This document shows, one piece after another, positions 84 to 29,780 of a DNA stretch of 35,117 nt (its first letter is position 1; each line of letters begins with the position of its first letter). A program made the translations under genes and the position numbers. Location: the IMG/VR virus record IMGVR_UViG_3300006810_000164, positions 1 to 35,117 of that record, one strand, 5' to 3'. Below the pieces are notes generated by a model. That model was not told where the DNA came from and did no database searches. It saw only the letters and a program-made list of their open reading frames with translations. The stretch is from a virus.

Positions 84-536
84 ATGAAAATAAGTAGAAA
101 AAGACTGAGAAGAATGATTATGGAAGAGTTAAGTTATAGCTCTAAAAATAAAAGACAATTAAATGAAATTGGTATGATTGCTGGGTTACCTTTAATGGTA
201 ATGATAGGTGCAGTAGGTTTTGCAACCGTTTCAGCAGCTGATAAGATTTTAAGAAAATTAAAGATCGGAGAATACGCAGAAATTGAGGAATTAATCGAAA
301 ATGATCCTGAATTAAAACAAATGATGGCGCAAGCTGGTGAAATGGTTACACAAGGTATGTCACCTGAAGAAGCGGTTAGAGAATTAGCAAGGCAAGATAG
401 TAGGGTTGCAGATAGAATTCGTGCTATTGAAAACAAATACCGTTCTGATACACTAGGTAGTTCGCCTTACGATCGAGCGCTAGGTACGACACCATCCCAA
501 CAGCCTGGATATCGTTTTGATTATGATGATCTTTAA
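84..536 (+). CDS. Small membrane protein with capsid-targeting-like leader
   Basis: A 150-residue protein of no recognised family. It opens with MKISRKRLRRMIMEE, a basic/hydrophobic leader ending in I-M-E that is shared in form with four other genes in the first 7 kb. One strongly hydrophobic segment follows (about residues 33-53, rich in M, A, G, V), probably a single membrane helix. The rest is acidic and helical, with a proline- and glycine-rich C-terminus ending in YDDL. The AAGGAA ribosome site 8 bases upstream supports the start. By analogy with T4 internal head proteins, the leader may direct it into the prohead and be cut off there, leaving a membrane-active protein that could be ejected with the DNA. 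That role is inference. The gene itself is well supported by its length, start signal and codon use. Confidence 0.8.
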   Translation: MKISRKRLRRMIMEELSYSSKNKRQLNEIGMIAGLPLMVMIGAVGFATVSAADKILRKLKIGEYAEIEELIENDPELKQMMAQAGEMVTQGMSPEEAVRELARQDSRVADRIRAIENKYRSDTLGSSPYDRALGTTPSQQPGYRFDYDDL

Positions 537-754
537 GTAACAATAAACTTATTGATAAAATCTTTTGTTTGAAAAGAAATTCTTTTATCATCTAACCATT
601 GAACTTTGTAGCATCTAGAATTAAAGTCTGATGCTACAATTTTTATTTGTGTATTATAGCCGTATATATTTAAGTCAACTACTTGGTTGACAGCTAACTT
701 ATTTCTTTTGCAGATTTTAATTAAAGCTGTTATTAGATTGATTATATTTTTCAT
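533..754 (-). CDS. Small minus-strand hypothetical protein
   Basis: A 73-residue protein of unknown function on the minus strand. The start is well supported: on the minus strand a CAGGAG ribosome site lies 7 bases before the ATG. The protein has a hydrophobic and basic N-terminus (MKNIINLITALIKICKRNK) and then alternating hydrophobic/polar stretches that suggest a small beta fold. Its stop codon overlaps the stop of the plus-strand gene before it, so the two genes are convergent with no space for a terminator between them. It is read divergently from the 888 gene, and both would start from the shared AT-rich region 755-887. It may be an early host-directed gene, but nothing in the sequence shows that. 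Confidence 0.7.
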   Translation of the reverse strand: MKNIINLITALIKICKRNKLAVNQVVDLNIYGYNTQIKIVASDFNSRCYKVQWLDDKRISFQTKDFINKFIVT

Positions 755-810
755 TGTTAACTCCTGTATTGTTTTATTATATTATAAACTATTTTTTTAG
801 GCGTTGCATT

Positions 811-837
811 TTTACATAAGTTTTTTCTTTGTATAAT
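811..837 (+). promoter_or_regulatory. Sigma70-like promoter for the 888 gene
   Basis: TATAAT at 832-837 with TTTACA at 811-816 (15-base spacing, short of the ideal 17). It lies about 50 bases before the ATG at 888. The minus strand of the same region has two overlapping TATAAT boxes (781-776 and 786-781) that could serve the divergent gene ending at 533, but no good -35 goes with them. Confidence 0.6.
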
Positions 838-842
838 AATAC

Positions 843-857
843 TGTGCATATCGCACA
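843..857. promoter_or_regulatory. Inverted repeat just downstream of promoter
   Basis: TGTGC-ATATC-GCACA, a perfect 5-base inverted repeat centred about 15 bases after the -10 box, so at or just after the transcription start. It could be an operator for a dimeric repressor or a small hairpin at the mRNA 5' end. Only one copy was noticed. Confidence 0.4.
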
Positions 858-887
858 ACTACACATTACACACACAAAGGAGCAAAC

Positions 888-1100
888 ATGAGTAGTAAAC
901 CATTTGAACTTAGAGCAGGCTTGCTAGGTCAAGCAGAAGGAATTTTATCACATAGATATCATCAAGAGTATGAAAGGCTTCGATATCTATGTGATAGGAA
1001 CTTGATCGATGCAAAAACAGTGACGTGGCCTGTTCCACCGACAACAGAAGAAATTATTGCTGAGGCTGAAAAACTATATAAGTTTGTTCAAACAAAGTAA
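888..1100 (+). CDS. Conserved small T4-type phage protein
   Basis: A 70-residue protein with a strong ribosome site (AAAGGAGCAAAC before the ATG), its own promoter and its own terminator, so it is a single-gene transcript that is probably highly expressed. The pattern PFELR at the start, then a helix with a Tyr/His-rich YHQEYERL segment, then P-P-T-T-E-E-I-I-x-E-A-E-K and a final FVQTK resembles a small hypothetical protein that I recall in marine T4-like phages (PFELR ... YP(T/S)-x-E-E-(I/V)-I-x-E-A ... FV). Its function is not known to me. The gene call is firm; the family link is from memory and has not been searched. Confidence 0.8.
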   Translation: MSSKPFELRAGLLGQAEGILSHRYHQEYERLRYLCDRNLIDAKTVTWPVPPTTEEIIAEAEKLYKFVQTK

Positions 1101-1130
1101 TATAGAAACTATAGATTCTGTAAGATAATT

Positions 1131-1158
1131 AAGGCTAGGACGATGTTCTGGCCTTTTT
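1131..1158 (+). terminator. Rho-independent terminator after the 888 gene
   Basis: AAGGCTAGGAC (1131-1141) pairs with GTTCTGGCCTT (1145-1155), with two G-T wobbles and a tight 3-base loop, followed by a T run to 1158. It isolates the 888 gene from the long gene starting at 1182. Confidence 0.8.
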
Positions 1159-1181
1159 AAATTAAAACAGATAGGATAGTA

Positions 1182-4019
1182 ATGTTATTAAATAGACTAA
1201 GTTTAAGAAAACTACTTTTTGAGCATTTATTAGTTGAATCTGCACAGCAAGCCTTAATTAGCAAATACCCTAAATTAGATACACAAGGGTATGTCGATTC
1301 GATAAATGAAATAAAAAACAAAAATAAATATTTACCTCTTCTTGACGCATTACTTGCAGACTATTCTTTGTCACGTGATTTTACAACAGATCACTTGATT
1401 CGCCATGGTGAAATTATATTTATGGTGCTTATGCATGAAAAATATTCTAATAGTCAAGCAATGTCAAACAACGACAAAGATGTGCAAGGAATCAAAGAAT
1501 ATTTACGAATGGTTCAAATTATTGACGACTTAGATGCCAAATTTTTTGCAAAAAACTCGTCACTTTATGACAACCTAATTCGTATAGATGCATCAGTAAC
1601 AGAAGATTATAAAGCTGAATTATTAGATAGAGAAATAGCAGAAGAAGATGATGACAGCATATCATTAGAACATGAAGTGAGACCGGGACTTAAGCTTTTG
1701 CAAATTATCGATGGCTGGCAAATACTTTTACCAATTAATTTAGAAGGCGGAAAAGCTATTGGTGTACAAGAGTGGTGCACTGTTAATAGCGATGCTTGGT
1801 TAACATATACTAATATGGGTAATACTTTATTTTATGTAGCCAAAGATCAAAACTACGACAGCTTAGGTGGGTACGGGTATGACTACGCCACTAGCCCCCA
1901 TAATTATGTTTCTATTGGCTTTAAAGGAAATAACATATACATACCTAGTGGTAACGCAGAATTAAGCGTTTGGGGAGATCAAGAAGGTGTAACTTATAAT
2001 AACTTGGCTAGAAGGTTAGGAAAAGAAGTATCAGAAAAAATTATAGCCTATATTAAGGAATACTTTAATAGAGGACAAGGATTACCATCAGGAAACTCTG
2101 CTAACCCAGCTGAATCAGCTAAAAGAGAGACTCGACGACAACAAGGAAAACTAGCAAGAGCGATAGGAAGAAATAAACGAATATTTGAGCAATATTTCTA
2201 CAATATCGGTGATCCTAACGCGCGGGCCGAGTTTGTTTTAGACACACTTGTAGGCACCGAGTTAAGTCAAAACATACTCGAACTTATAATGCTTAAATAC
2301 TGCATACTCAACAGAGACAGTGTTTTAATGGAATCTAACGCATACAAGGCAGGTGAATGGGAAACGATAGTTGTTGGTCTCTATATGGATGTACATATGA
2401 CCCCTTCTGACGACTTTAAAAATCAGATCGTTGCATGGCTGCTACAAGAAAATAATAGAATTCATTTGCAAAAACTTTTAGATGATAATTTTTATGACTA
2501 TTGCAAGCCTTATTTGTCAAATGAATCAGGTGTCGCATATGATCATGCTGACAGCCGTATAAATTATGAGTTATTTGCCAAGAGAAATATGCGTGGAATA
2601 AGTGTAGAAAACTATTTAAAGATGTTTAATCTTATTCCTTTTGAATTAATTGAATCTTATGAAAACTGGGATATAAGCTTAAACTTGCAATTATCTGATT
2701 TTGATCTAGGTTTTTCTAAAAGATTTAACGAAGGGCTAAATAACTCATACAATACTGACAAACCTACAATTGCACTAGCGTTTAGTCAAGTCTATAATAC
2801 CCCTAGGTTTGCATCATTACAAGATCAACTTTTCGAATCAATTTATGGTCCTCGTGAAGTAAAAATGAAATATACATCAATAAGGGATAGAAATCTTGTA
2901 GTTAATAATTTTTTAAAGCTCGATGAAATATTGACTAAAAAGAACAAGCTAGTACCCACAGAGGTAATAGAAGGCTATATAAGTAAACGTGTAGAAATGT
3001 ACAAGGAAAATTCACTAAGCGCTGCATCTAATTATGACATGTTAACCGAAGAGCATTTTAACCCATTTGTTCCAGAAATATCTGCGATTAAAGACCTGAC
3101 AAGAAAAGGTGTTCAAATACCTGAAAATGTAATAAACTCAATTAAAAAAGTTAAGTATTTTATTGATATGACAAATAGAGGCCCTAGAGATGCATATCGC
3201 ATAATCAAAGAAAGACCGGAATCTAAAATGGCGCAAGAATACACTGCTTTGATGTTTGCAAAAGCTGAGGCAATATATAATGCTAAAAAAGTGTGTATTT
3301 CTTATTTTTCCTCGAGAGACGATGTAAATTATTTTCCTAGATTCAAGCCGATGTCGATAGTGTTCGACATGGAGTTTATCTCTAAATATGAAGACAAACT
3401 AAAGTATGCATATCGAGTTATGGATATGTTAGAAGATATTGGTTCAAATGAAAGAGCTTCTTTTATTCGAGCATCATCTTCTTATTTTACCAAACTTAGA
3501 GACGATATCACGCCAGTAACCGGTCTCGAGAATAACATCAGACCTTTTGAATTAATAGATTTTTATGAAGATATCAGACTGAAAACAATTGAGGTCATGA
3601 CAAAAAATTCTTCAGAAGCACAGAAAAAAGATATCGATGAAGGAATGGCCGGTCTCTATAAACAAATATTAGAAAGCACTTCGCTGCTAAACTGGTACAT
3701 CTTCTTTAAAAATGACAGAGAGTTATTTAAGCAGTTTTGCATCGATGTTTATAGCAGTAGATGGTTTATGAAAAGTAGGCAACCTTATGAACTACTACCT
3801 ATTCAGGCAGCGTATAAATCAATTGAGGTTATGATTTACGCTCCGAACGAAGAGCTAGGAAGAATTACAATCGAACAAGCTAACGCAGATCTTCAAGACC
3901 TGATTCAAATCAGCAAAGAAGTAACAGATATAACAGGGGAATTCAAAGCTAGCATGTACAATCCAAGACCTTTTGTCGAAAGAGTTGACGAAGATGACGA
4001 AGAAGAAGATTGGGACTAG
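1182..4019 (+). CDS. Large leader-bearing protein with WCT motif
   Basis: A 945-residue protein that I cannot assign. It opens with a leader variant (LSLRKLLFEHLLVE, then S), where L-V-E/S fits the T4 prohead protease site. An acidic linker lies near residues 150-165. Residues about 165-300 hold a compact domain with W198-C199-T200, a Y-x-x-x-G turn, a LFYVA strand and a later YVSIGFKGNN stretch. This W-C-(T/A) ... G-x-x-(L/F)-(F/Y)-(Y/F)-(V/I) pattern resembles a domain I recall from large marine phage proteins of unknown function (from memory only). The rest is mostly helical, with a highly acidic C-terminus (EDDEEEDWD). There are no membrane segments or catalytic motifs that I recognise. 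It may be a large internal head protein, as T4 Alt is; that is inference. The ATG at 1182 has AGGATAG upstream. Confidence 0.75.
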   Translation: MLLNRLSLRKLLFEHLLVESAQQALISKYPKLDTQGYVDSINEIKNKNKYLPLLDALLADYSLSRDFTTDHLIRHGEIIFMVLMHEKYSNSQAMSNNDKDVQGIKEYLRMVQIIDDLDAKFFAKNSSLYDNLIRIDASVTEDYKAELLDREIAEEDDDSISLEHEVRPGLKLLQIIDGWQILLPINLEGGKAIGVQEWCTVNSDAWLTYTNMGNTLFYVAKDQNYDSLGGYGYDYATSPHNYVSIGFKGNNIYIPSGNAELSVWGDQEGVTYNNLARRLGKEVSEKIIAYIKEYFNRGQGLPSGNSANPAESAKRETRRQQGKLARAIGRNKRIFEQYFYNIGDPNARAEFVLDTLVGTELSQNILELIMLKYCILNRDSVLMESNAYKAGEWETIVVGLYMDVHMTPSDDFKNQIVAWLLQENNRIHLQKLLDDNFYDYCKPYLSNESGVAYDHADSRINYELFAKRNMRGISVENYLKMFNLIPFELIESYENWDISLNLQLSDFDLGFSKRFNEGLNNSYNTDKPTIALAFSQVYNTPRFASLQDQLFESIYGPREVKMKYTSIRDRNLVVNNFLKLDEILTKKNKLVPTEVIEGYISKRVEMYKENSLSAASNYDMLTEEHFNPFVPEISAIKDLTRKGVQIPENVINSIKKVKYFIDMTNRGPRDAYRIIKERPESKMAQEYTALMFAKAEAIYNAKKVCISYFSSRDDVNYFPRFKPMSIVFDMEFISKYEDKLKYAYRVMDMLEDIGSNERASFIRASSSYFTKLRDDITPVTGLENNIRPFELIDFYEDIRLKTIEVMTKNSSEAQKKDIDEGMAGLYKQILESTSLLNWYIFFKNDRELFKQFCIDVYSSRWFMKSRQPYELLPIQAAYKSIEVMIYAPNEELGRITIEQANADLQDLIQISKEVTDITGEFKASMYNPRPFVERVDEDDEEEDWD

Positions 4020-4040
4020 TAATTTAACAGAGGAGTTATT

Positions 4041-4622
4041 ATGACAATGTATATATTGCTAATTAGTATGGCACTGGCACAAACCTTTGACGTATACGTC
4101 GCACCTATACAAAAGCGTGTATACTCTAATCAGGTTGAAGCAGTCATCGGATCAAAATCTGCTTATGGATATAATACAGCATACTGGAAGAATGCCAAGT
4201 CTTTGACACAAAGAGGTACAAAAGAACCAATATCCTTAAATAATCTTGTTCGTTTTTATGATGAAGACACAATAGGATATGCATATAAAAATTGCAATTA
4301 TAATAGTGACTACAAAAAATGTGCAAATCAAAATAATCACTACACTGTTGAAACCCACATAACTGTGGATGATCATGAGATTGTCGTACAAATGATTCTG
4401 TACGCTCCTGACATGACCGTGATTAATATATCAAGTGTGTCTGAAAAGTCATCTGTCCGCTGGATTAGACAACAAGAAGTAACAGTTATACAAACACGTG
4501 AAGCAACAATTACGCATATGCCAAAAGAAGAGTTACCACTTAAATGGTTAATACCTGCAAATCTCATGAATGAGCAAATTAGAAGAGCAACAGCTGGATT
4601 GTGGGCAGGAGTAATATTATGA
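4041..4622 (+). CDS. Secreted hypothetical protein with signal peptide
   Basis: A 193-residue protein of unknown function. The first 14 residues (MTMYILLISMALAQ) are a short hydrophobic signal-like segment with A-L-A-Q before the mature start TFDVYV, so it is probably exported to the periplasm or outer membrane space. Two cysteines (in NCNYNSDYKKCANQ) could form a disulfide there. Beta-rich segments follow (HYTVETHITVDDHEIVVQMILY). GAGGAG lies 7 bases before the ATG. Its TGA overlaps the ATG of the next gene (ATGA), so the two are translationally coupled: a secreted protein together with a GNAT-like protein. Exclusion or envelope remodelling are possible roles, but the sequence does not show either. 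Confidence 0.75.
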   Translation: MTMYILLISMALAQTFDVYVAPIQKRVYSNQVEAVIGSKSAYGYNTAYWKNAKSLTQRGTKEPISLNNLVRFYDEDTIGYAYKNCNYNSDYKKCANQNNHYTVETHITVDDHEIVVQMILYAPDMTVINISSVSEKSSVRWIRQQEVTVIQTREATITHMPKEELPLKWLIPANLMNEQIRRATAGLWAGVIL

Positions 4623-5554
4623 AAATAACAAAGAAAAAGCTAAGAAAGATAATTAAAGAATCCGTAAAAAAGATATTGTTAGAAACAACTGATCATGACA
4701 AACTATTAGCAGAAATGCCTAATCTAATGTTAAAATACGAAGAAACATATGATTCGAATCAACAAGACGTTACGATTCTTGACTTATTTAGCGGTAATCG
4801 GTTAGTTGCATCAGCGACTTTGACAAAGCTGACCGGCCAATTGCACGGCCACCCAATTAAATTATCAAACCCTAATGAGGAGCATAGTGATGATTTAGGG
4901 AAAGATGAAGATGGCGTGATGAGGCATTGGAAAGAATCCGGATGTATTCCCAATACATACTCAGTTAGTTCTATATACACAAATATTAATTTTCAAAACT
5001 CAGGAATAGGCGAGTTAATGCTTGACTTAATTTTCTACTATTGTGAAGCTATTGCACCACTAAGCCCAGCAGGAATTACTACAGATTTTGAAGGCGGAAA
5101 CACTGCAATTATTAATTACATTATTAAGTCTAAGATTGGCGAAAGCGGAGGCGGTGTGTATTATAAACAATCAACTAGCGTTGGTAACCAACAAATGGAC
5201 TTTTTTGGTGCTACTACAGACCCTGACGACGATTGTTATTCTGAGTTATTTGATGACGAAGGTGTTTATGAGTTAGTCATCGATCAAGGTTATACAGAAG
5301 AAGAGGCGTATGCCGAGGTCGGCTATGGTTCATCGTATGATGAAAAATTTCCTTTTGGAACTACTAGCTCTTGGAGAAAAAGAGGAATTCAATCCATGGC
5401 GCCTGTCTGGGAAGAACTCACATCCAAAGCTTTGGATTTTAGTATTGGTGAAGACCGGATGCAAAATAAAAGATTATCAGGCTTTAGAGACGCTTATGAT
5501 AACACTCCCACCCCAGAAGAAATTAGTCGCCGTCAAAGAGAAAAAAATAATTAA
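4619..5554 (+). CDS. Leader-bearing GNAT-like acetyltransferase candidate
   Basis: 311 residues from the ATG at 4619. This start is chosen over 4601 because it gives an ATGA overlap with the upstream gene, has AGGAG 7 bases before it, and places the leader MKITKKKLRKIIKE at the N-terminus. I-K-E/S, and again L-L-E/T at 20-23, fit T4-type prohead protease sites. Residues about 110-160 look like the acetyl-CoA binding part of a GNAT fold: a strand, then FQNSGIG (125-131, the Q/R-x-x-G-x-G/A loop), then helix ELMLDLIFYY and the AGITTD strand. The same signatures, including the preceding CIPxT and a later D-x-x-G-(A/S)-T...DDC segment, recur in the protein at 28527, so the two are homologous. It could be an enzyme packaged in the head and injected to acetylate host targets. 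The fold is a motif-level call; the role is inference. Confidence 0.7.
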   Translation: MKITKKKLRKIIKESVKKILLETTDHDKLLAEMPNLMLKYEETYDSNQQDVTILDLFSGNRLVASATLTKLTGQLHGHPIKLSNPNEEHSDDLGKDEDGVMRHWKESGCIPNTYSVSSIYTNINFQNSGIGELMLDLIFYYCEAIAPLSPAGITTDFEGGNTAIINYIIKSKIGESGGGVYYKQSTSVGNQQMDFFGATTDPDDDCYSELFDDEGVYELVIDQGYTEEEAYAEVGYGSSYDEKFPFGTTSSWRKRGIQSMAPVWEELTSKALDFSIGEDRMQNKRLSGFRDAYDNTPTPEEISRRQREKNN

Positions 5555-5896
5555 TTACAAGTACTTCTTCCAAGCGTGTTTTTCTCTTGTTTTTAAATAG
5601 TCTTTGTTGTAGTGATTATCATAAGCTTCCTTCTCAAACGGAATATTAAAATAAGCATCGTCGTTTGACATTCCTTGAACTTTGCCCTTAGCCCAATAGA
5701 AAACATATAGAACATAGAAAAGAATAACAAACAGTTCTCGTTGCTGCTCTATGTGTATCTTTTCGTGGTTTATTGTGATAGGATTGTCATAATCAGATCT
5801 TAAGATGATAAACGGGAAAAGGGTGATTGCACCGACTGAGATAAAGATAGAGAGTGCTTTTGTGATTTTGTCAGATTTAATAATTATAGGTTTCAT
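5555..5896 (-). CDS. Membrane HExxH putative metallopeptidase
   Basis: 113 residues on the minus strand from the ATG at 5896, chosen over a TTG 12 bases upstream because GGAG lies 6 bases before this ATG. A hydrophobic N-terminal segment (about 14-32) is followed by INHEKIHIEQQRE, an HExxH zinc motif at residues 44-48, then a second hydrophobic segment (FVILFYVLYVFYWA) and FEKEAY, which may give the third (Glu) zinc ligand. Small membrane proteins of this layout, with H-E-x-I-H then Q-Q and F-E-x-E-A-Y, occur in bacteria and phages, as I recall; their substrates are not known. A T4 late promoter box lies 41 bases upstream on the same strand, so it is probably made late, possibly for envelope or lysis work. 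Its stop codon abuts the stop of the plus-strand gene before it. Confidence 0.75.
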   Translation of the reverse strand: MKPIIIKSDKITKALSIFISVGAITLFPFIILRSDYDNPITINHEKIHIEQQRELFVILFYVLYVFYWAKGKVQGMSNDDAYFNIPFEKEAYDNHYNKDYLKTREKHAWKKYL

Positions 5897-5932
5897 TAGA
5901 TACTCCAAAATTTTGTTAACTTTAATAGTTTT

Positions 5933-5950
5933 GCATATATTTATATATGC
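5933..5950 (-). promoter_or_regulatory. Minus-strand late promoter within a palindrome
   Basis: GCATATAT-TT-ATATATGC is a perfect 8-base inverted repeat. Read on the minus strand it contains TATAAATA (5945-5938), the exact T4 late promoter -10 box, pointing to the HExxH gene. The plus strand reads TATTTATA here, so the box serves the minus strand only. Confidence 0.65.
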
Positions 5951-5974
5951 TTATTCTATGCAAAAGGAGAAAAA

Positions 5975-6220
5975 ATGGCACAAACTAAAAAATCACCTGC
6001 AACACTTGACAAGACTAGTCTAGTTGAAAAAGAAGTTGCAGTACTCAAAGAAGAAAATAAAAGATTATTAAAAGAAGTTGCTGATCTTAGAAAACTAGTA
6101 GAAGGTTTGACACTTAAGTTAGAAAAACATGATCATCCACAAAAAGCAGTCGTTGCCCAGGATAAAGCACTTAGAGCAGGATTGTTAAAGTTTAATCCTA
6201 AGATTGCTAGATATATCTAA
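5975..6220 (+). CDS. Small coiled-coil protein
   Basis: An 81-residue protein. Residues about 15-52 (from SLVEKEVAVLKEENKRLL to LKLEKH) have regular leucine/valine heptad spacing and many K/E pairs, a clear parallel coiled coil. The N-terminus is Lys/Thr/Ser-rich and the C-terminus (RAGLLKFNPKIARYI) is basic. AAAGGAG lies 7 bases before the ATG. Its function is unknown; small oligomerising proteins of this kind can be whiskers, head decoration or regulators. It opens a small plus-strand cluster with the two overlapping genes after it and is divergent from the HExxH gene. Confidence 0.75.
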   Translation: MAQTKKSPATLDKTSLVEKEVAVLKEENKRLLKEVADLRKLVEGLTLKLEKHDHPQKAVVAQDKALRAGLLKFNPKIARYI

Positions 6221-6223
6221 AGA

Positions 6224-6358
6224 ATGCCTAAAAAGAGAATTAAGATCGGGTTATTTGAAATTATCTTGGTTCTCTTTTTAATATATTTTAATACAATTAT
6301 TTTATTTAATCAAATAAAAGATTGCTTAGTTTATTTTAAAAAAAAATTTACAAGATGA
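6224..6358 (+). CDS. 44-residue single-span membrane microprotein
   Basis: The short ORF runs from ATG 6224 to TGA 6358: a basic start (MPKKRIKIG), then one long hydrophobic helix (LFEIILVLFLIYFN and on through TIILF), then a basic tail (YFKKKFTR). This is a typical inner-membrane microprotein with a charged residue at each end. It begins 4 bases after the stop of the coiled-coil gene and its TGA overlaps the ATG of the next gene as ATGA, so all three are likely read as a unit. The ribosome site is weak (AAAGA), which fits coupling. Holin-like or signalling roles are possible but not shown; one helix is short for a classical holin. Confidence 0.6.
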   Translation: MPKKRIKIGLFEIILVLFLIYFNTIILFNQIKDCLVYFKKKFTR

Positions 6359-6756
6359 AAATAACAAAAAATCAGTTAAGGCGTATAATATTGAAGGAGC
6401 TAGCCAGACTTTCATATGCTAGTAAAGAGCAAGGTTATACATACGGATTAGACCATATTAGTAAAAGAGATAAGGCTGCTGACGATATTATCGGCCATAC
6501 ATGACTGACGCATGTTAAGCGGAAGGATTCCGCTATTAGCGAAGTAGGTAAAGTACTTTGGCATAGCCTAAACAAAGATGGCATAATCGAAATATATGAC
6601 GTAGAATGGCCTAAAAGTGGAATTGAAACTGATATTCCTGCCATTTTGTTAGAAAAAGTAAAAGATAGTGATGACTTAGGAGAAGCTCATGAGTCTCACG
6701 GTGTAAAAGGGCATGAAAAAGATTTACTTAAGTCTGATAGAAAATATAAAAAATAA
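6355..6756 (+). pseudogene. Leader-bearing gene interrupted by in-frame TGA
   Basis: A 134-codon frame opens with the leader MKITKNQLRRIILKE and is stopped at codon 50 by TGA (6502-6504), but the same frame stays open for 83 more codons to TAA at 6754-6756. The part after the TGA reads as normal protein (LTHVKRKDSAISEVGKVLWH and so on, ending in a Lys-rich HGVKGHEKDLLKSDRKYKK). The stop is followed by CTG, and UGA-C is a leaky context, so low-level readthrough is possible. A mutated TGG (Trp) or CGA, or a base error, is equally possible. No other gene in the window uses TGA as a sense codon. The N-terminal 49-residue product may still be made. Function is unknown. Confidence 0.65.
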
Positions 6757-6789
6757 GATATATATATAAAAGAAGCTTTAGGAGAGTAT

Positions 6790-7080
6790 ATGAGTAAAAA
6801 AATCAACAGAAACAAATTAAGAAAAATGATTATTGCTGAGGCAAAAAATATGATATCAGAAATGGGAATGGGTGGCGCACCACATCCAGATTCACCTGAG
6901 TATGAAACTACAGCACAGGTTATTCAAAATTGCATTATGAGCTGTATCCATGCAGGAAGATGTGATCCCATGCGAGTTCAAATGATGACTCAAGAAATGT
7001 GTGAAGACTACGGATGTCCACAATATGCTGATTATTGCGCTCAAAGAGTTATTTCTGCATGTCAAAGAATGGGCTTGTAA
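6790..7080 (+). CDS. Cysteine-rich leader-bearing small protein
   Basis: A 96-residue protein. The leader is MSKKINRNKLRKMIIAEAK; I-A-E/A is the best match in the window to the T4 capsid targeting cleavage site, which in T4 internal proteins also reads I-A-E/A. The rest holds seven cysteines spaced C-x3-C-x5-C-x12-C-x4-C-x6-C-x7-C within about 45 residues, plus many methionines. The cysteines could bind zinc or form disulfides. AGGAG lies 6 bases before the ATG. TATATAAA (6763-6770) upstream could be a degenerate late promoter. It is proposed as packaged cargo on the strength of the leader; the mature function is unknown. Confidence 0.75.
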   Translation: MSKKINRNKLRKMIIAEAKNMISEMGMGGAPHPDSPEYETTAQVIQNCIMSCIHAGRCDPMRVQMMTQEMCEDYGCPQYADYCAQRVISACQRMGL

Positions 7081-7159: not shown

Positions 7160-8308
7160 GTGGCAAATTTTGAAAATACATCTAGTCCGACTCCTTTTGG
7201 AATATATGATAGCGAAACAGAATTTATTTCTGATGCTGATAATATCGTTACTTTTGTTAAGCGCAAGCTAGGTGACGATATTCTTTCTGTAGAACTTACA
7301 AAAAAACAAATTTGGGGTAACTTCGAAGAAGCAACCTTAGAATATAGTTCAATATTAAATCAATACCAAGCCAAGTCTCAACTGGTAAACTTTTTAGGTT
7401 ACGCCACTGGGAGCATGACCGGAAGTGAAGAAAAATTCATAAGAGAAAATTTAGAATTTTTAGGAAGATTTGCAGAGCCATACGCAATGGAAGCAGGAAT
7501 TGGTGGATCATACAATTCTCTATCAGGTTCAATTCAATTAGAAATAGGACGTCAAGACTATAATATTTATACTGAATTAAGCGGGGCGAACGGTCTTCTT
7601 TTTGATGACACAAAAGGTAAAATTAAAATTGAAGAAGTTTTTCATTACAACCCGCAAGCTGCTTACAGGTTTTTTGACACTACTAGTGCAATCAATTATT
7701 TAAATAATGAATTTTCTTTTGAATCTTTTACTCCTGAGACAGTCTTTTATATTCTTCCTGTATATGAAGATATACTTAGAGGTGGGCAACTTGACCTGTC
7801 CAATAGAGTTAGACGGTCAAATTACTCTTACAAGATTAATGGTACAAATTTTAGAATATACCCACTACCAACAACCGAAACAAAGCTATTTTTAAGAGTT
7901 CGACAATATCCAGACCCACTTTCCCCTTCATATACTGATGCAACCGTGCACGGCGTATCAAATATGAGCAATCTTCCTTTTGGAAATGTCAAATACAATA
8001 GAATTAATAGTATAGGGCGTCAGTGGATCAGAAGTTATACTCTAGCCATTTCAATGGAGCAGTTAGGTTATATTAGGAGTAAGTTTGGAAGTATTCCTGT
8101 ACCTAACGCAGAAGTCTCTCTAAACGGTTCTGATTTAATTAGTAACGGTAGGACAGACAGGGATGGACTTAAAGAAAAATTAAGAGAAATGTTGGAGTCG
8201 ATGACGTATGATAAGTTAATGGAAACGCAATCGACAAGATCAGAATTAATTCAAAAACAACTAAAGTATATACCTATACCAAATGGTAAAGCAATTTTTT
8301 ATGGATAA
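7160..8308 (+). CDS. gp13: Neck protein gp13-like (head completion)
   Basis: 382 residues from a GTG start with GAGGT upstream. In T4, gp13 with gp14 completes the neck that joins the filled head to the tail. The assignment rests on position (first of a 13-14-15-18-19 order) and on features I associate with marine T4-like gp13: an N-terminal helical stretch in which a short segment after the start reads ADNIVTFVKRKLG, then KKQIWGNFEEATLEYSS, and a long mixed alpha/beta body. It is longer than T4 gp13 (about 309 residues). The C-terminal helix (DGLKEKLREMLESM) may sit in the connector. Transcribed from the late promoter just upstream, together with the genes that follow. Confidence 0.65.
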   Translation: MANFENTSSPTPFGIYDSETEFISDADNIVTFVKRKLGDDILSVELTKKQIWGNFEEATLEYSSILNQYQAKSQLVNFLGYATGSMTGSEEKFIRENLEFLGRFAEPYAMEAGIGGSYNSLSGSIQLEIGRQDYNIYTELSGANGLLFDDTKGKIKIEEVFHYNPQAAYRFFDTTSAINYLNNEFSFESFTPETVFYILPVYEDILRGGQLDLSNRVRRSNYSYKINGTNFRIYPLPTTETKLFLRVRQYPDPLSPSYTDATVHGVSNMSNLPFGNVKYNRINSIGRQWIRSYTLAISMEQLGYIRSKFGSIPVPNAEVSLNGSDLISNGRTDRDGLKEKLREMLESMTYDKLMETQSTRSELIQKQLKYIPIPNGKAIFYG

Positions 8309-10239: not shown

Positions 10240-11085
10240 ATGGCAGAACAAACATTTAGGTCTCCGGGTTTTTTCGAAAGAGAAGTTGATTTAACCCAGA
10301 GAGCGGTAGAAATTGATGGTGTCCCTGCAGGCATAATTGGAACTGCAACACAAGGGCCGGCATTCGTACCTGTCACTGTTGGATCATTTATTGATTTTGA
10401 GAGAAAATTTGGAACGTTAACAAAAGATTATTTTGGTCCATTTGCAGTAAGAGAATGGCTTAAAAATAGATCGTCTGTGACCTATGTAAGAGTTTTAGGT
10501 GCAGGTGCGACTTCTACTGCTGCACATATTGAAACTACTGAGGCTAACGGAACGGTTCCAAATGCAGGATTTATTGTAAAAGGTACAGCATCGGAAGATA
10601 GGTGTCACAAAGGATCGGTTCAATTTTTAGTGGCAGCTCATGACATTAATGAAAATGAATCTGCAGGCTATCCGCTCTTTACTGATAGCGATGCATATGA
10701 TACATCGTCAGAGATTAAGATTGCACGTGCAATGTTATTTATGGCATCCGGTTCGCAAGCATATGTGTTAAATCATAATCAAACTTTTTCAGCAGGTAAC
10801 AGTACAGATAGCGCAACTATCAAAAATTATAACGGTGGTAGTGATGAAGGTACTTTTAAGCTTGTACTATCGAGTGCTTTAGGGAGTTCATTTTCAAATG
10901 ACGAAGGTACCCCGGGGATAAAAATCTATACTGCATCACTGGATCCTTCTAGTAAACACTACATAGGAAAGTTTTTAAACACCAACCCGGACCTCTTTCA
11001 TTCTGAACAACACTTATTATATGCAAACTTGAAATTCCTTCAGAAATTGCCAAAGTCACATATCATGTATCTAACCCAACTGTAG
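10240..11085 (+). CDS. gp18: Tail sheath gp18-like copy 1, N-terminal part (frame broken)
   Basis: The first 281 codons of a sheath gene that should run to 13325 (about 1,028 residues). AAGGAG precedes the ATG. The N-terminus (FRSPGFFEREVDL, then GVPAGIIGTA-x-x-GPAF, then FGPFAVREWL) is the sheath signature and matches the second copy at 13350 almost position by position. At about 11029-11031 the frame is lost: codons read GCA AAC TTG AAA, whereas one more T (GCA AAC TTT GAA ATT CCT) would continue correctly into the frame that stays open to 13325. The last 18 or so residues before the TAG at 11083 are therefore out of frame. No classical slippery heptamer is present. It is either a true one-base deletion in a redundant gene or a sequencing/assembly error. 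Confidence 0.75.
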   Translation: MAEQTFRSPGFFEREVDLTQRAVEIDGVPAGIIGTATQGPAFVPVTVGSFIDFERKFGTLTKDYFGPFAVREWLKNRSSVTYVRVLGAGATSTAAHIETTEANGTVPNAGFIVKGTASEDRCHKGSVQFLVAAHDINENESAGYPLFTDSDAYDTSSEIKIARAMLFMASGSQAYVLNHNQTFSAGNSTDSATIKNYNGGSDEGTFKLVLSSALGSSFSNDEGTPGIKIYTASLDPSSKHYIGKFLNTNPDLFHSEQHLLYANLKFLQKLPKSHIMYLTQL

Positions 11086-13325
11086 GTATAGTTTCTGGTA
11101 GTGATAACAATAGCGGTGCAGGGATTAATTTTAGAGACACATTTGGAAGATTTGACACCAGATATCAAACTGCAAAAACAACACCTTTTATTTCTCAGCC
11201 TTTTGGAACAAAAGAATATGACTTATTTTACTTTGAGTCTCTTGATGATGGTGAAATTGGTAATACTCGCGTAAAAGTATCAATATCTGATATTAAAAGA
11301 TCTACAAACCCCAAAAATAAATACGGTACTTTTACTGTTTTAGTAAGAGATTATAATGATACTGATACAAATATTAAAGTTTTGGAGCAATATTCGCAAT
11401 GCTCATTAGACCCTAGAGACGAAAATTATATTGCAAATAAAATAGGCGACTTTAAAGTCTATTATAACTTTGATGCAGCTCAAGAGTCTGAAAGAAGATT
11501 AAATATTGGAGGGAAGAGGCCAAATCGCTCAAGATATGTTAGGGTTGTAATGAATGCAAATGTTGAAGATAGAATCGTACCTGAAGATTCATTGCCTTTT
11601 GGTTTTAGAGGAATTCCTGTTCCAAAATTAAATGATAATCTAACAGATTCTATTTCCGGGACAGATTCACCCAGGCTAGGATATGTTATATCTAGTGACG
11701 ATACTTACGGACTCACAGGATCAATTGTACCACCTGTGCCTATGCGCTTTAAAACAACTAGAGGTGCTATTAATAGTTCTCCATCATTTACCGGTCAGCC
11801 GGGTGGATTAGAACTAGCAGACAAAAGATACTTCTGGGGAGTTCAAACTGAAACCTTACCCTTGACAGGTACAATAGGAAACGCAACAACTCAACCAAAT
11901 GCTTCTTCAGCAAAAAGTGAATTGGTAAAAAGTTATGGAAAATTCTTAGGAATACAAAAATTAGATGGTTTAACCACCGGTTCAGCAGCAGATACTTTTA
12001 ACAATAATAAGTTTACATTAGCAAAGGTAGCTTTTTACAATCAGATTGCAACTAGCTCAACAATCGAAGACTCTATTTCAAGCACTATCACAGGATCTGC
12101 AGATCTTCATATTAAAGAAGCAGCTTATATTAGAAACGGTATTTTAGAAACAAAAAATTATACAATCACAGATGATGTAGGATCAATACAGCGTGTAACA
12201 TTAGCAACGTTGGCTGCTGCAAGATCTGAAAAATATTTTAATAGATTTATTGATTATAATAAGTTTACAAATATTCTTTATGGTGGATTTGATGGCTTAA
12301 ATATTCTTGACAAAGATAACAGATTAATGAATGACAGAGCTAGCTCTATGGACGCTTTAGGAAAAGCAAATTTATCAAATGGAGAATTTACACACGAAAA
12401 CTTGCATGAAGATTCAAGCCCAGGTAGTGGAAAAGATAATAATATTATTAGTGCTTATAGAACAGCTGCCAAAATCATTACTGATCCATTTGCATCGCGT
12501 GTTAATATCGTTGCAGTTCCTGGAATCAAAGAACCTTTTGTTACTGATTATCTATCAGATGCTGTCAGAGATTACAGTCATGCAATTTACTTAATGGATA
12601 TTCCATCATATGACGATTCAGGTAACAGAATACACGATACACTAACATTACCTAGCGTTCAAGAAACTGTTGATTCTTTTAATGCTAGAGCAATTGACAA
12701 CAATTATGTAGCAACTTATTTTCCTGATGTTGTTATGAATGATAATATTAATAGAACTAGTCAAACAGTTCCTTCTTCAATTGCAGCATTAAAAGCTCTA
12801 GGATATAATGATTCAATTGCATATCCTTGGTTTGCACCTGCAGGATTTAATAGGGGTGCGTTAAATGATGTTATTAATTCAAAAGTAAGGCTAAACGCCG
12901 AAGATAGAAATATTCTTTATGAATCTAGAATTAATCCTATCGCAAACTTTCCAGACGGCGGTTTTGTTATTTTTGGCCAAAAAACATTGCAACAAGATCG
13001 ATCATCACTGGACAGAGTTAACGTAAGAAGAATGCTTTTAGAAGTAAAAAGAGTCATATCTGATATTGCTAACAAATTAATTTTTGAAAACAATACGCCG
13101 CAAACACGCGCAAGATTTGTTGCTAAAGCAACACCTTTACTAGGCGCAATTCAATCGCAACAAGGTATTGATCAATTTAAAATTGTTATGGATACGTCTA
13201 ACAATTCTGAGTTGGATATTGAAGAAAACAAGCTTAACGGAAGAATTATTTTAGTCCCTACAAGAGTAGCAGAATTTATCTCTATTGACTTTATAATTAC
13301 TAACGCAGGTGTTAGCTTTGAATAA
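11031..13325 (+). CDS. gp18: Tail sheath gp18-like copy 1, remaining part (frame broken)
   Basis: Open frame continuing the sheath after the one-base disruption near 11030, with no start codon or ribosome site of its own at the junction (the first usable alternatives, such as TTG 11382, have none either). It encodes about 764 residues: the variable middle domains, then the conserved C-terminal sheath domain with FGFRGIPVP, the nucleus NIVAVPGIKEPFVTDY, the P-W-F-A-P-A-G motif (YPWFAPAGFNRGAL), FGQKTLQ, LDRVNVRRMLLEVKR and a final EFISIDFIITNAGVSFE. All of these have counterparts in copy 2. Sheath subunits polymerise around the tube and contract on infection. If the disruption is real, this part is probably not made and the phage relies on copy 2. 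Confidence 0.7.
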   Translation, partial: EIPSEIAKVTYHVSNPTVGIVSGSDNNSGAGINFRDTFGRFDTRYQTAKTTPFISQPFGTKEYDLFYFESLDDGEIGNTRVKVSISDIKRSTNPKNKYGTFTVLVRDYNDTDTNIKVLEQYSQCSLDPRDENYIANKIGDFKVYYNFDAAQESERRLNIGGKRPNRSRYVRVVMNANVEDRIVPEDSLPFGFRGIPVPKLNDNLTDSISGTDSPRLGYVISSDDTYGLTGSIVPPVPMRFKTTRGAINSSPSFTGQPGGLELADKRYFWGVQTETLPLTGTIGNATTQPNASSAKSELVKSYGKFLGIQKLDGLTTGSAADTFNNNKFTLAKVAFYNQIATSSTIEDSISSTITGSADLHIKEAAYIRNGILETKNYTITDDVGSIQRVTLATLAAARSEKYFNRFIDYNKFTNILYGGFDGLNILDKDNRLMNDRASSMDALGKANLSNGEFTHENLHEDSSPGSGKDNNIISAYRTAAKIITDPFASRVNIVAVPGIKEPFVTDYLSDAVRDYSHAIYLMDIPSYDDSGNRIHDTLTLPSVQETVDSFNARAIDNNYVATYFPDVVMNDNINRTSQTVPSSIAALKALGYNDSIAYPWFAPAGFNRGALNDVINSKVRLNAEDRNILYESRINPIANFPDGGFVIFGQKTLQQDRSSLDRVNVRRMLLEVKRVISDIANKLIFENNTPQTRARFVAKATPLLGAIQSQQGIDQFKIVMDTSNNSELDIEENKLNGRIILVPTRVAEFISIDFIITNAGVSFE

Positions 13326-28526: not shown

Positions 28527-29780
28527 ATGAGAAAAATAAAAGAAATCAAAACCGGAGCTTTTCGTCCTAGTATAGACAGTATAGGTTTAGGTACACATAA
28601 TAGAACAATGGGAAGGTCTAGTCCGTCCACCGGTGCAGACTCTTGGTTTAGTAGATATTCCCAGTCTCCGCCTAATATAGTTTTAGATGATGAAGAATAC
28701 GAAGAAGATGAAGATATGATATTGGAAAATAGAGTATATAAAAACGGTAAATACTGTCTAATAGAAACTTTAAATAACTTATTAGAACAGCCTGACTATG
28801 TTACTCCTTATAGGATTATGGCCGATAAGATTAATCAAGCATCCCAAAAAAGAAAAGAAAATGTTAGAAATTTAGATAGTTTAGAAGACATGGTTGAAGA
28901 TCCAATAGATGAAATGTCTGCCGGTGGCGTTGCAGGCGTTGCTGTTCCTTTAGGTCATACGAGTAAAGGAAAACCTGAGACTAAGTCACAAAGAAGAAAA
29001 CGACAAAAGTACAATAGAGAAAAAAGCTATCCACTTGGTGAAAATTTCCACCAGGATATAATTAAAGAAGGCTGGCGCGAATTGCTTTCAACTATAACAG
29101 CAGGAAATATTGATCATAGAAAAAGGTTAGAAATAGAATACGAGTCGACATTGGATGATATAGCATTATATATTGACTCTAGTAATAAGCATATTAACAT
29201 ATACACCTATATACCAGTAGGTTTTAACGGAAGCTCCGCTGTAATTGATGTATATAACCCACCTAAGTTGGTAGGTTTTATTAAATCAAGATTGCTTTCT
29301 TCTAAATCGAATCCTTGTATACCGAAAACTTTTCACGTAAAAGTGTCAGCTGTTGCTAAAGATTTTCAAGGAAAAGGTATGGGTAAATTAATTTACAATA
29401 TCTTAGCAACTGTTGCAAAAAGCAAAGGTGCAGGAATAACCTCAGATCATAATGTCTCGACCTCTCCATCCGCTACTAGGGTCTGGAATAGTATGGATAG
29501 GAACCCAAACTATACTAAAAGAGTTACGAAAGCAGGAAATGATAAATTTGATTATAACGGATCAACACCTTTTGATACAGAAGATGATTGCAAGAGACCT
29601 GGGATGGGTGAACCTGCTATTGATCATAGCCTAGAAATAATTGCTGGTATTGATGATCAAATGGAAGTCATGGAGAGAAGACATAAGAAATACACATCCG
29701 ATGCAATAAGAATGAACGCATCAGCCATGAGAAGAAAATTAAAGCATTCCGGTTCTGATACCTTTGACGAAGTTTATTAA
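28527..29780 (+). CDS. GNAT-like protein, paralogue of the 4619 gene
   Basis: A 417-residue protein. Residues 1-160 are polar, with an acidic run (DDEEYEEDED, 54-63) and a basic patch (KSQRRKRQKYNREK). HQDIIKE/GWRELL (175-187) fits the prohead protease pattern I-x-E/G and could be an internal maturation site. The C-terminal domain shares a row of features with the 4619 protein: CIPKTFHV, then FQGKGMG (280-286, acetyl-CoA loop), helix KLIYNILATVA, AGITSD, and a D-x-x-G-S-T...DDC segment. It is probably a GNAT-type acyltransferase. The start has no Shine-Dalgarno sequence, like the polymerase gene just before it (14 bases away), with which it may be co-transcribed. Confidence 0.7.
   Translation: MRKIKEIKTGAFRPSIDSIGLGTHNRTMGRSSPSTGADSWFSRYSQSPPNIVLDDEEYEEDEDMILENRVYKNGKYCLIETLNNLLEQPDYVTPYRIMADKINQASQKRKENVRNLDSLEDMVEDPIDEMSAGGVAGVAVPLGHTSKGKPETKSQRRKRQKYNREKSYPLGENFHQDIIKEGWRELLSTITAGNIDHRKRLEIEYESTLDDIALYIDSSNKHINIYTYIPVGFNGSSAVIDVYNPPKLVGFIKSRLLSSKSNPCIPKTFHVKVSAVAKDFQGKGMGKLIYNILATVAKSKGAGITSDHNVSTSPSATRVWNSMDRNPNYTKRVTKAGNDKFDYNGSTPFDTEDDCKRPGMGEPAIDHSLEIIAGIDDQMEVMERRHKKYTSDAIRMNASAMRRKLKHSGSDTFDEVY

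Follow-up and report, generated by a model that had tools for sequence, protein, structure and literature searches.

A putative second class of capsid-targeting tag on unrelated proteins, one of them a probable selenoprotein, in uncultured marine T4-superfamily phages

The capsid targeting sequence (CTS) of phage T4 is a propeptide of 10 to 19 residues that binds core proteins; T4 internal proteins (IPs) bind gp22. Cleavage by the protease gp21 falls after L/I-x-E, and ejection of the cargo into the host comes later (PMC9026906). In the phiKZ-like giant phage SPN3US, the head proteins gp53 and gp54 begin with identical residues although they have diverged, and a gp21-related protease cleaves head propeptides behind x-x-E (PMC5694885). 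Here we describe a short leader carried by five genes at the start of IMG/VR virus record IMGVR_UViG_3300006810_000164 (positions 1 to 35,117, hereafter the window), a 35.1-kb record of a T4-superfamily myovirus according to its open reading frame (ORF) lists and family matches. We consider it likely that this leader is a prohead-core targeting propeptide cut by the S77 (gp21-type) prohead protease, T4-like in logic and not in sequence. Like the T4 CTS of IPI, IPII, IPIII, and Alt, it is a short N-terminal module with an (L/I)-x-E end on otherwise unrelated proteins, and like T4, these phages encode an S77 protease, a gp22-like scaffold, and a gp23-like capsid protein whose long N-terminal pro-region has L-x-E at its end. 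In contrast to the CTS, its upstream part is basic (MKITKxQLRxII, versus MKTYQEF in T4), it often offers two candidate cut sites, it is found on 10 to 30 genes per genome, some of them in tandem, and it also occurs on the product of a gene adjacent to the protease. It likewise differs from the SPN3US propeptides, which mostly have about 100 residues or more and A-x-E or S-x-E sites, whereas the leader has about 14 to 22 residues and L/I-x-E.

All five leaders lie on the forward strand in the first 7 kb of the window, at 84 (MKISRKRLRRMIMEE), 1182 (MLLNRLSLRKLLFEHLLVES), 4619 (MKITKKKLRKIIKESVKKILLET), 6355 (MKITKNQLRRIILKEL), and 6790 (MSKKINRNKLRKMIIAEA). They are where a first-pass annotation, made from the letters alone, had placed them, and every one ends in (L/I)-x-E as it had said; the pattern it wrote, LR-x-(I/L/M)(I/L)-x-E, is exact only at 84, 1182, and 4619, with one residue more before the Glu at 6355 and 6790. 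These two retain the (L/I)-x-E end as LKE and IAE, respectively, and the annotation was right that the 6790 end, IAE/A, is that of T4: it equals the IPIII site. A further (L/I)-x-E follows downstream in four of the five (QLNE, LLVE, LLE, and ISE), the exception being 6355. We scored the leaders with a hidden Markov model (HMM) trained on leader proteins of the same phage group, using a cut-off of 8 bits. They span 84 to 167 (I-M-E at residues 12 to 14, QLNE ending at residue 28; 30.9 bits), 1182 to 1238 (MLLNRLSLRKLLFE-HLLVE; 1.8 bits), 4619 to 4684 (MKITKKKLRKIIKE-SVKKILLE; 30.3 bits), 6355 to 6399 (MKITKNQLRRIILKE; 26.7 bits), and 6790 to 6861 (MSKKINRNKLRKMIIAE-AKNMISE; 11.5 bits). None of 3129 shuffled N-termini reached the cut-off, and a regular expression that matched four times in the window matched nowhere in 300 shuffles of the window's ORF N-termini or in randomly chosen viral contigs totalling 520 kb. 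Because it scores just 1.8 bits, the 1182 leader is no more than a divergent member of the family; its membership rests on orthologs that keep the pattern (e.g., MLLTRRIFRKLIFEALLLE) and on bridging forms (e.g., MKITRRQLRRLLSERLLVEA).

Across relatives the family consensus is MKITK-x-QLR-x-IIKE/E...(L/I)xE/, where slashes mark the predicted cuts. The bodies behind it differ: the five in the window are mutually unrelated, and 409 leader-bearing bodies form 303 clusters by sequence, of which 242 have a single member. When 135 non-homologous members were aligned, they shared the consensus MKITKxQLRxIIxEE and almost nothing beyond it. Compared with the T4 leader sequences (MKTYQEFIAE/A in IPII and IPIII, MKTFKEFTST in IPI), the leader HMM scored below 0 bits for all three IPs, which gives no direct homology link and leads us to regard the leader as working like the CTS without belonging to it by sequence. 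The number of body clusters and the missing similarity to the T4 leaders bear out the first-pass annotation's idea of a modular tag of a distinct class. For a logo we chose 451 N-termini by residues 1 to 5 and L8 alone, leaving E14 unforced; I12 was nonetheless present in 93% and E14 in 91%. A second [LIVM]xE is enriched with its Glu at residues 18 to 22 (28% at E22 alone, against a background of about 2%), conservation ends at residue 22, and information is about zero from residue 23.

The genomic surroundings connect the leader to head assembly. A contig identical to the window over the compared region (L332) extends 8 kb further upstream and carries, in order, an S77 protease gene (2095 to 2697 of that contig), a leader-like gene, further small genes, a gp22-like scaffold gene, a gp23-like capsid gene, and the window's leader genes. 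In the window lineage the leader genes are thereby located between capsid and neck; the neck/head-tail adaptor gene (7160 to 8308, forward strand) ends the leader-gene block and was the query for finding relatives. Of 30 large records bearing either the leader or the neck gene of the window, 27 have S77, as do all 17 records of at least 150 kb that were selected by leader; among 50 random records, a control not matched for length, 4 do. Twenty-seven leader-bearing virus records lacked S77, and these had no capsid gene, no terminase over the cut-off, and no HK97 capsid; because terminase and capsid genes are missing too, they are fragments without the head module. Neither S78 (13 of these records tested) nor an HK97 capsid (27 tested) was found as an alternative head system. 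Among the records examined, none combined the leader and a head module with the lack of S77, so the question raised with the first-pass annotation, whether the leader is common in phages without a prohead protease, is answered in the negative. As a separate observation, the major capsid protein is encoded twice in one leader-bearing genome, by full-length genes lying side by side (G001:C1:139110-141017 and 141082-142962).

Two findings that support a head-targeting role had not been predicted beforehand. One is that the gene directly after S77 often bears the same leader (e.g., MAKISKSMLKGIVKECLVEILAEG, MKLTRAKLKDLIKECIVEVLAEG, and MKITKEHLRQIIKEEVEAALSEE). With an HMM built from cargo leaders only, S77-adjacent genes being excluded, 14 of 30 such genes reached at least 8 bits, as did none of 497 ORFs from random contigs, 3129 shuffled N-termini, 32 capsid N-termini, and 24 scaffold N-termini. 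By analogy with T4, we expect the S77-adjacent gene to be a candidate prohead-core gene. The other is that the capsid pro-region in nearly all relatives ends in ...LLENQAAQ(V/L)L(R/K)E/(A/Q/S), and L-x-E, the same motif as at the leader ends, is for this reason presumed to be the main S77 site. The leader residues form a basic amphipathic helix, with a mean net charge of +3.9 over residues 1 to 14 against about -50 for the gp22-like scaffold, a difference that suggests docking of the basic helix on the acidic core.

An obvious variant is a leader that docks on some part of the virion, be it the prohead core or another, and stays uncut, its (L/I)xE being a helix packing pattern. The conserved I12 and E14 could indeed reflect helix register, and P1' is mostly Glu; still, mere packing fits poorly with a second, spacing-variable [LIVM]xE at residues 18 to 22 where conservation ends, with the retention of L/I-x-E at 6355 and 6790 after the register has moved by one residue, or with a capsid pro-region that, in the same genomes, finishes with L-x-E, and we find this variant unlikely. 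It is also very unlikely, in our judgment, that the leader is a host-directed helix for binding membrane, nucleoid, or RNA polymerase on early take-over proteins, with shared ancestry behind the S77 link. A basic amphipathic helix would suit such a role, many bodies resemble small accessory proteins, and a late promoter signal is missing upstream of the leader genes, but early take-over proteins would not be expected to share their leader with a protein encoded together with protease, scaffold, and capsid, to be encoded, in the window lineage, between the capsid and neck genes, or to be absent from every S77-free head-bearing record.

Several observations weigh against a cleaved prohead-targeting propeptide as we propose it. 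The leader has no detectable similarity to the T4 CTS in sequence, and 1182, one of the five window leaders, is barely recognized by the HMM. Residue 15, which would be P1' after a cut at E14, is mostly Glu, versus Ala in T4 IPII and IPIII. The T4-type late promoter TATAAATA is depleted upstream of the leader genes and not enriched, so late expression is unsupported by promoters. The random records used as S77 control differ in length from the leader-bearing ones, and the co-occurrence of leader and S77 is partly the shared ancestry of one phage group; for this reason we treat it as a passed test and not as proof.

Leader genes are numerous and seem to have multiplied as cassettes. At least 12 and at least 17 were counted in the two closest relatives for which long records exist, and a 201-kb genome (G011) has about 30, some 20 of them in a tandem array at 146 to 161 kb. 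Among the G011 leaders the same codon is used at a rate of 0.58, versus 0.36 expected from codon usage, with no excess in the bodies, and this excess in leaders alone is why we think that they spread between genes. The array and the codon similarity would also suit leader DNA that is mainly a recombination cassette for capturing new genes, encoding a peptide of little function. About 42% of same-residue codons, however, differ while the residues are unchanged, and diverged genomes retain leaders both on orthologs and on the core protein, which makes this highly improbable as the whole explanation. Elsewhere, two near-duplicate leader proteins of 763 to 764 amino acids (MKITKRRLRKILLESLLLES...), with no known family, are encoded on the minus strand of G013:C1 at 28709 and 31000 (L227).

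Among the matches listed for a degenerate DNA pattern, the leader is common in IMG/VR, and it is nearly missing from a phage collection of 50,697 records. In 257 Gb of cellular genomes, a somewhat narrower DNA pattern matched only seven stretches on four contigs. One of these is 305 kb long and another is 101,404 bp, the same size in bp as an IMG/VR phage record; given these sizes, at least two of the four look like binned phage contigs. Several leader genes (L301, L305, and L306 on NHDW01000006.1; L302 and L304 on PBIO01000025.1) are binned in Methylococcaceae and Halobacteriovorax metagenome-assembled genomes; the two contigs look like jumbo phage, and a hint at the host and mis-binning are both possible. 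A text search of the literature for the leader sequence gave no match.

The fourth leader gene (6355 to 6756, forward strand; 133 amino acids) had been called a broken ORF by the first-pass annotation. We read it differently: its conservation pattern indicates that it is very probably a leader-tagged phage selenoprotein, with selenocysteine (Sec) at residue 50 and an SH3/KOW-like C-terminal domain. The in-frame TGA at 6502 to 6504 is kept in 28 of 28 distinct homologs and is never a sense codon, and for this reason we reject simple decay or sequencing error as the cause of the stop; elsewhere in the same genomes TGA is an ordinary stop. The stretch around it, IGHT-U-LTH with U at the TGA, is the most conserved of the protein, and coding conservation extends to both sides. 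Distant cyanophage homologs (profile alignment E value, 1.2e-8; hhalign E value, 1.9e-7 with the Sec site masked) have an invariant Cys aligned with the TGA in 12 of 12 cases, also with the site masked. A hairpin at 6518 to 6534, 13 nt past the TGA on the forward strand, resembles a selenocysteine insertion sequence (SECIS): positions 6518 to 6524 pair with 6528 to 6534 around the loop GGA. Across an alignment of 26 sequences, every pair cell (100%) holds a standard pair and 5 of 7 pairs have changed on both sides, whereas moving the partner by 1 to 3 columns lowers pairing to 46 to 61%. The bacterial SECIS (bSECIS) model calls for a 3- to 9-nt loop, a 4- to 16-bp stem, a G in the loop, and a spacing of 16 to 37 nt from the TGA (PMC13188914), and the hairpin agrees on every point (7 bp, 3-nt loop beginning with G, 20-nt spacing). 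In a screen for stop-spanning conservation the 6355 family was the largest TGA cluster; we judged the other clusters to be tandem genes or else shadows of conserved genes, either antisense or out of frame.

Ordinary programmed readthrough, inserting Trp or another amino acid, or plain decay would match the way genome annotation labels a TGA, namely as a stop, and no phage tRNA-Sec passed the cut-off in the phage genomes scanned. Neither process would be expected to keep TGA in all 28 homologs with no sense codon, to put Cys rather than Trp in all 12 cyanophage homologs, to preserve a covarying hairpin at SECIS spacing, or to make IGHT-U-LTH the most conserved stretch, and we regard them as quite improbable. 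Decoding as Sec would need host machinery, given that no phage tRNA-Sec was found; Basilisk-like phages are reported to carry a tRNA-Sec gene (PMC6145125). Rfam returned nothing at the SECIS site. The structural model of the protein has a confident leader helix and an SH3-like barrel, and a structure search gave no PDB match below an E value of 0.001. The gene resembles bacterial bSECIS selenoproteins in its in-frame TGA, Cys homologs, stem-loop at the model distance, and loop G, and departs from them in being phage encoded, bearing a head-loading leader, and having only phage relatives in the searched data. Viral selenoproteins are known from poxviruses, as the GPX of molluscum contagiosum and fowlpox viruses (PMC8310308); these too are encoded by a virus, but there the virus is eukaryotic and the enzymes are host acquired, whereas the 6355 gene belongs to a DNA phage and a phage-specific family. 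No earlier report of a phage selenoprotein was found in the open-access literature, whose coverage was incomplete. Two fusions (L029:8054-9277 and L013:4027-4680) combine an N-terminal leader with an internal leader-like segment just before the selenoprotein domain, as if they were polyproteins cut at internal leaders. Apart from this, G013 (C1:36680-37040) and G014 encode transfer-messenger RNA (tags ANNNAHFESVALAA and ANNNNFYDVALAA) plus several tRNAs.

The other window cargo proteins, all encoded on the forward strand, are mostly of no named family. Leader protein 1 (84 to 536; 150 amino acids) has a hydrophobic segment behind the leader and no confident family, no family was found for leader protein 2, the "WCT" protein (1182 to 4019; 945 amino acids), and leader protein 5 (6790 to 7080; 96 amino acids) is Cys rich. 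The GNAT-like reading first given to leader protein 3 (4619 to 5554) is supported at the level of predicted fold: its model is of low confidence (predicted local distance difference test [pLDDT], 55), GNAT enzymes make up nearly all of its best-scoring PDB matches (lowest E value, 0.008), and its paralogue in the window has sub-threshold GNAT family matches. This second GNAT-type protein (28527 to 29780, forward strand) is without the leader and is fused to another N-terminal module, which occurs alone in G013 (113366 to 113854). Among leader proteins at large, Pfam matched only a few (pentapeptide repeats, DnaJ, HNH, EF-hand, and DUF5824) and PHROG matches of the bodies were mostly unnamed, leaving most of the cargo without a known family. 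Beyond the leader block, family matches identify neck, two tail sheath genes, tail tube, UvsX/RecA, gp32-like, and PolA-like genes. The first tail sheath gene (10240 to 13325) is split across two frames and is intact in the relative G013 (1048 amino acids; G013:129221-132367), so the split is probably a frameshift or an assembly error in the window record.

Together, we propose that during head assembly the basic leader helix would let tagged proteins dock on the gp22-like scaffold, which is strongly acidic, that S77 would cleave them behind the (L/I)xE Glu, just as it would the capsid precursor, and that the freed cargo would stay in the head and enter the host along with the DNA; packaging, cleavage, retention, and injection are all inferred from sequence. 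Leaders would pass between genes as a cassette, and the cargo would include the GNAT-like enzyme, HNH, DnaJ, and pentapeptide-repeat proteins, and the probable selenoprotein, made by decoding TGA as Sec through the SECIS hairpin with host machinery. On balance we lean toward the full proposal: a second capsid-targeting tag class, unrelated in sequence to that of T4, that gives each phage of an uncultured marine T4-superfamily group a large and fast-changing set of 10 to 30 injected proteins, including a packaged and injected phage selenoprotein. Virion-carried proteins are otherwise normally found only through proteomics of cultured phages; with such a tag, sequence alone would single out, among the thousands of uncharacterized proteins of marine phages, those that travel in the virion and are probably delivered into the host. 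Since the leader is rare in the phage collection and common in IMG/VR, it may open an untouched pool of host take-over proteins, and the Sec/Cys pair predicts that the hosts of the TGA-bearing phages decode selenocysteine.

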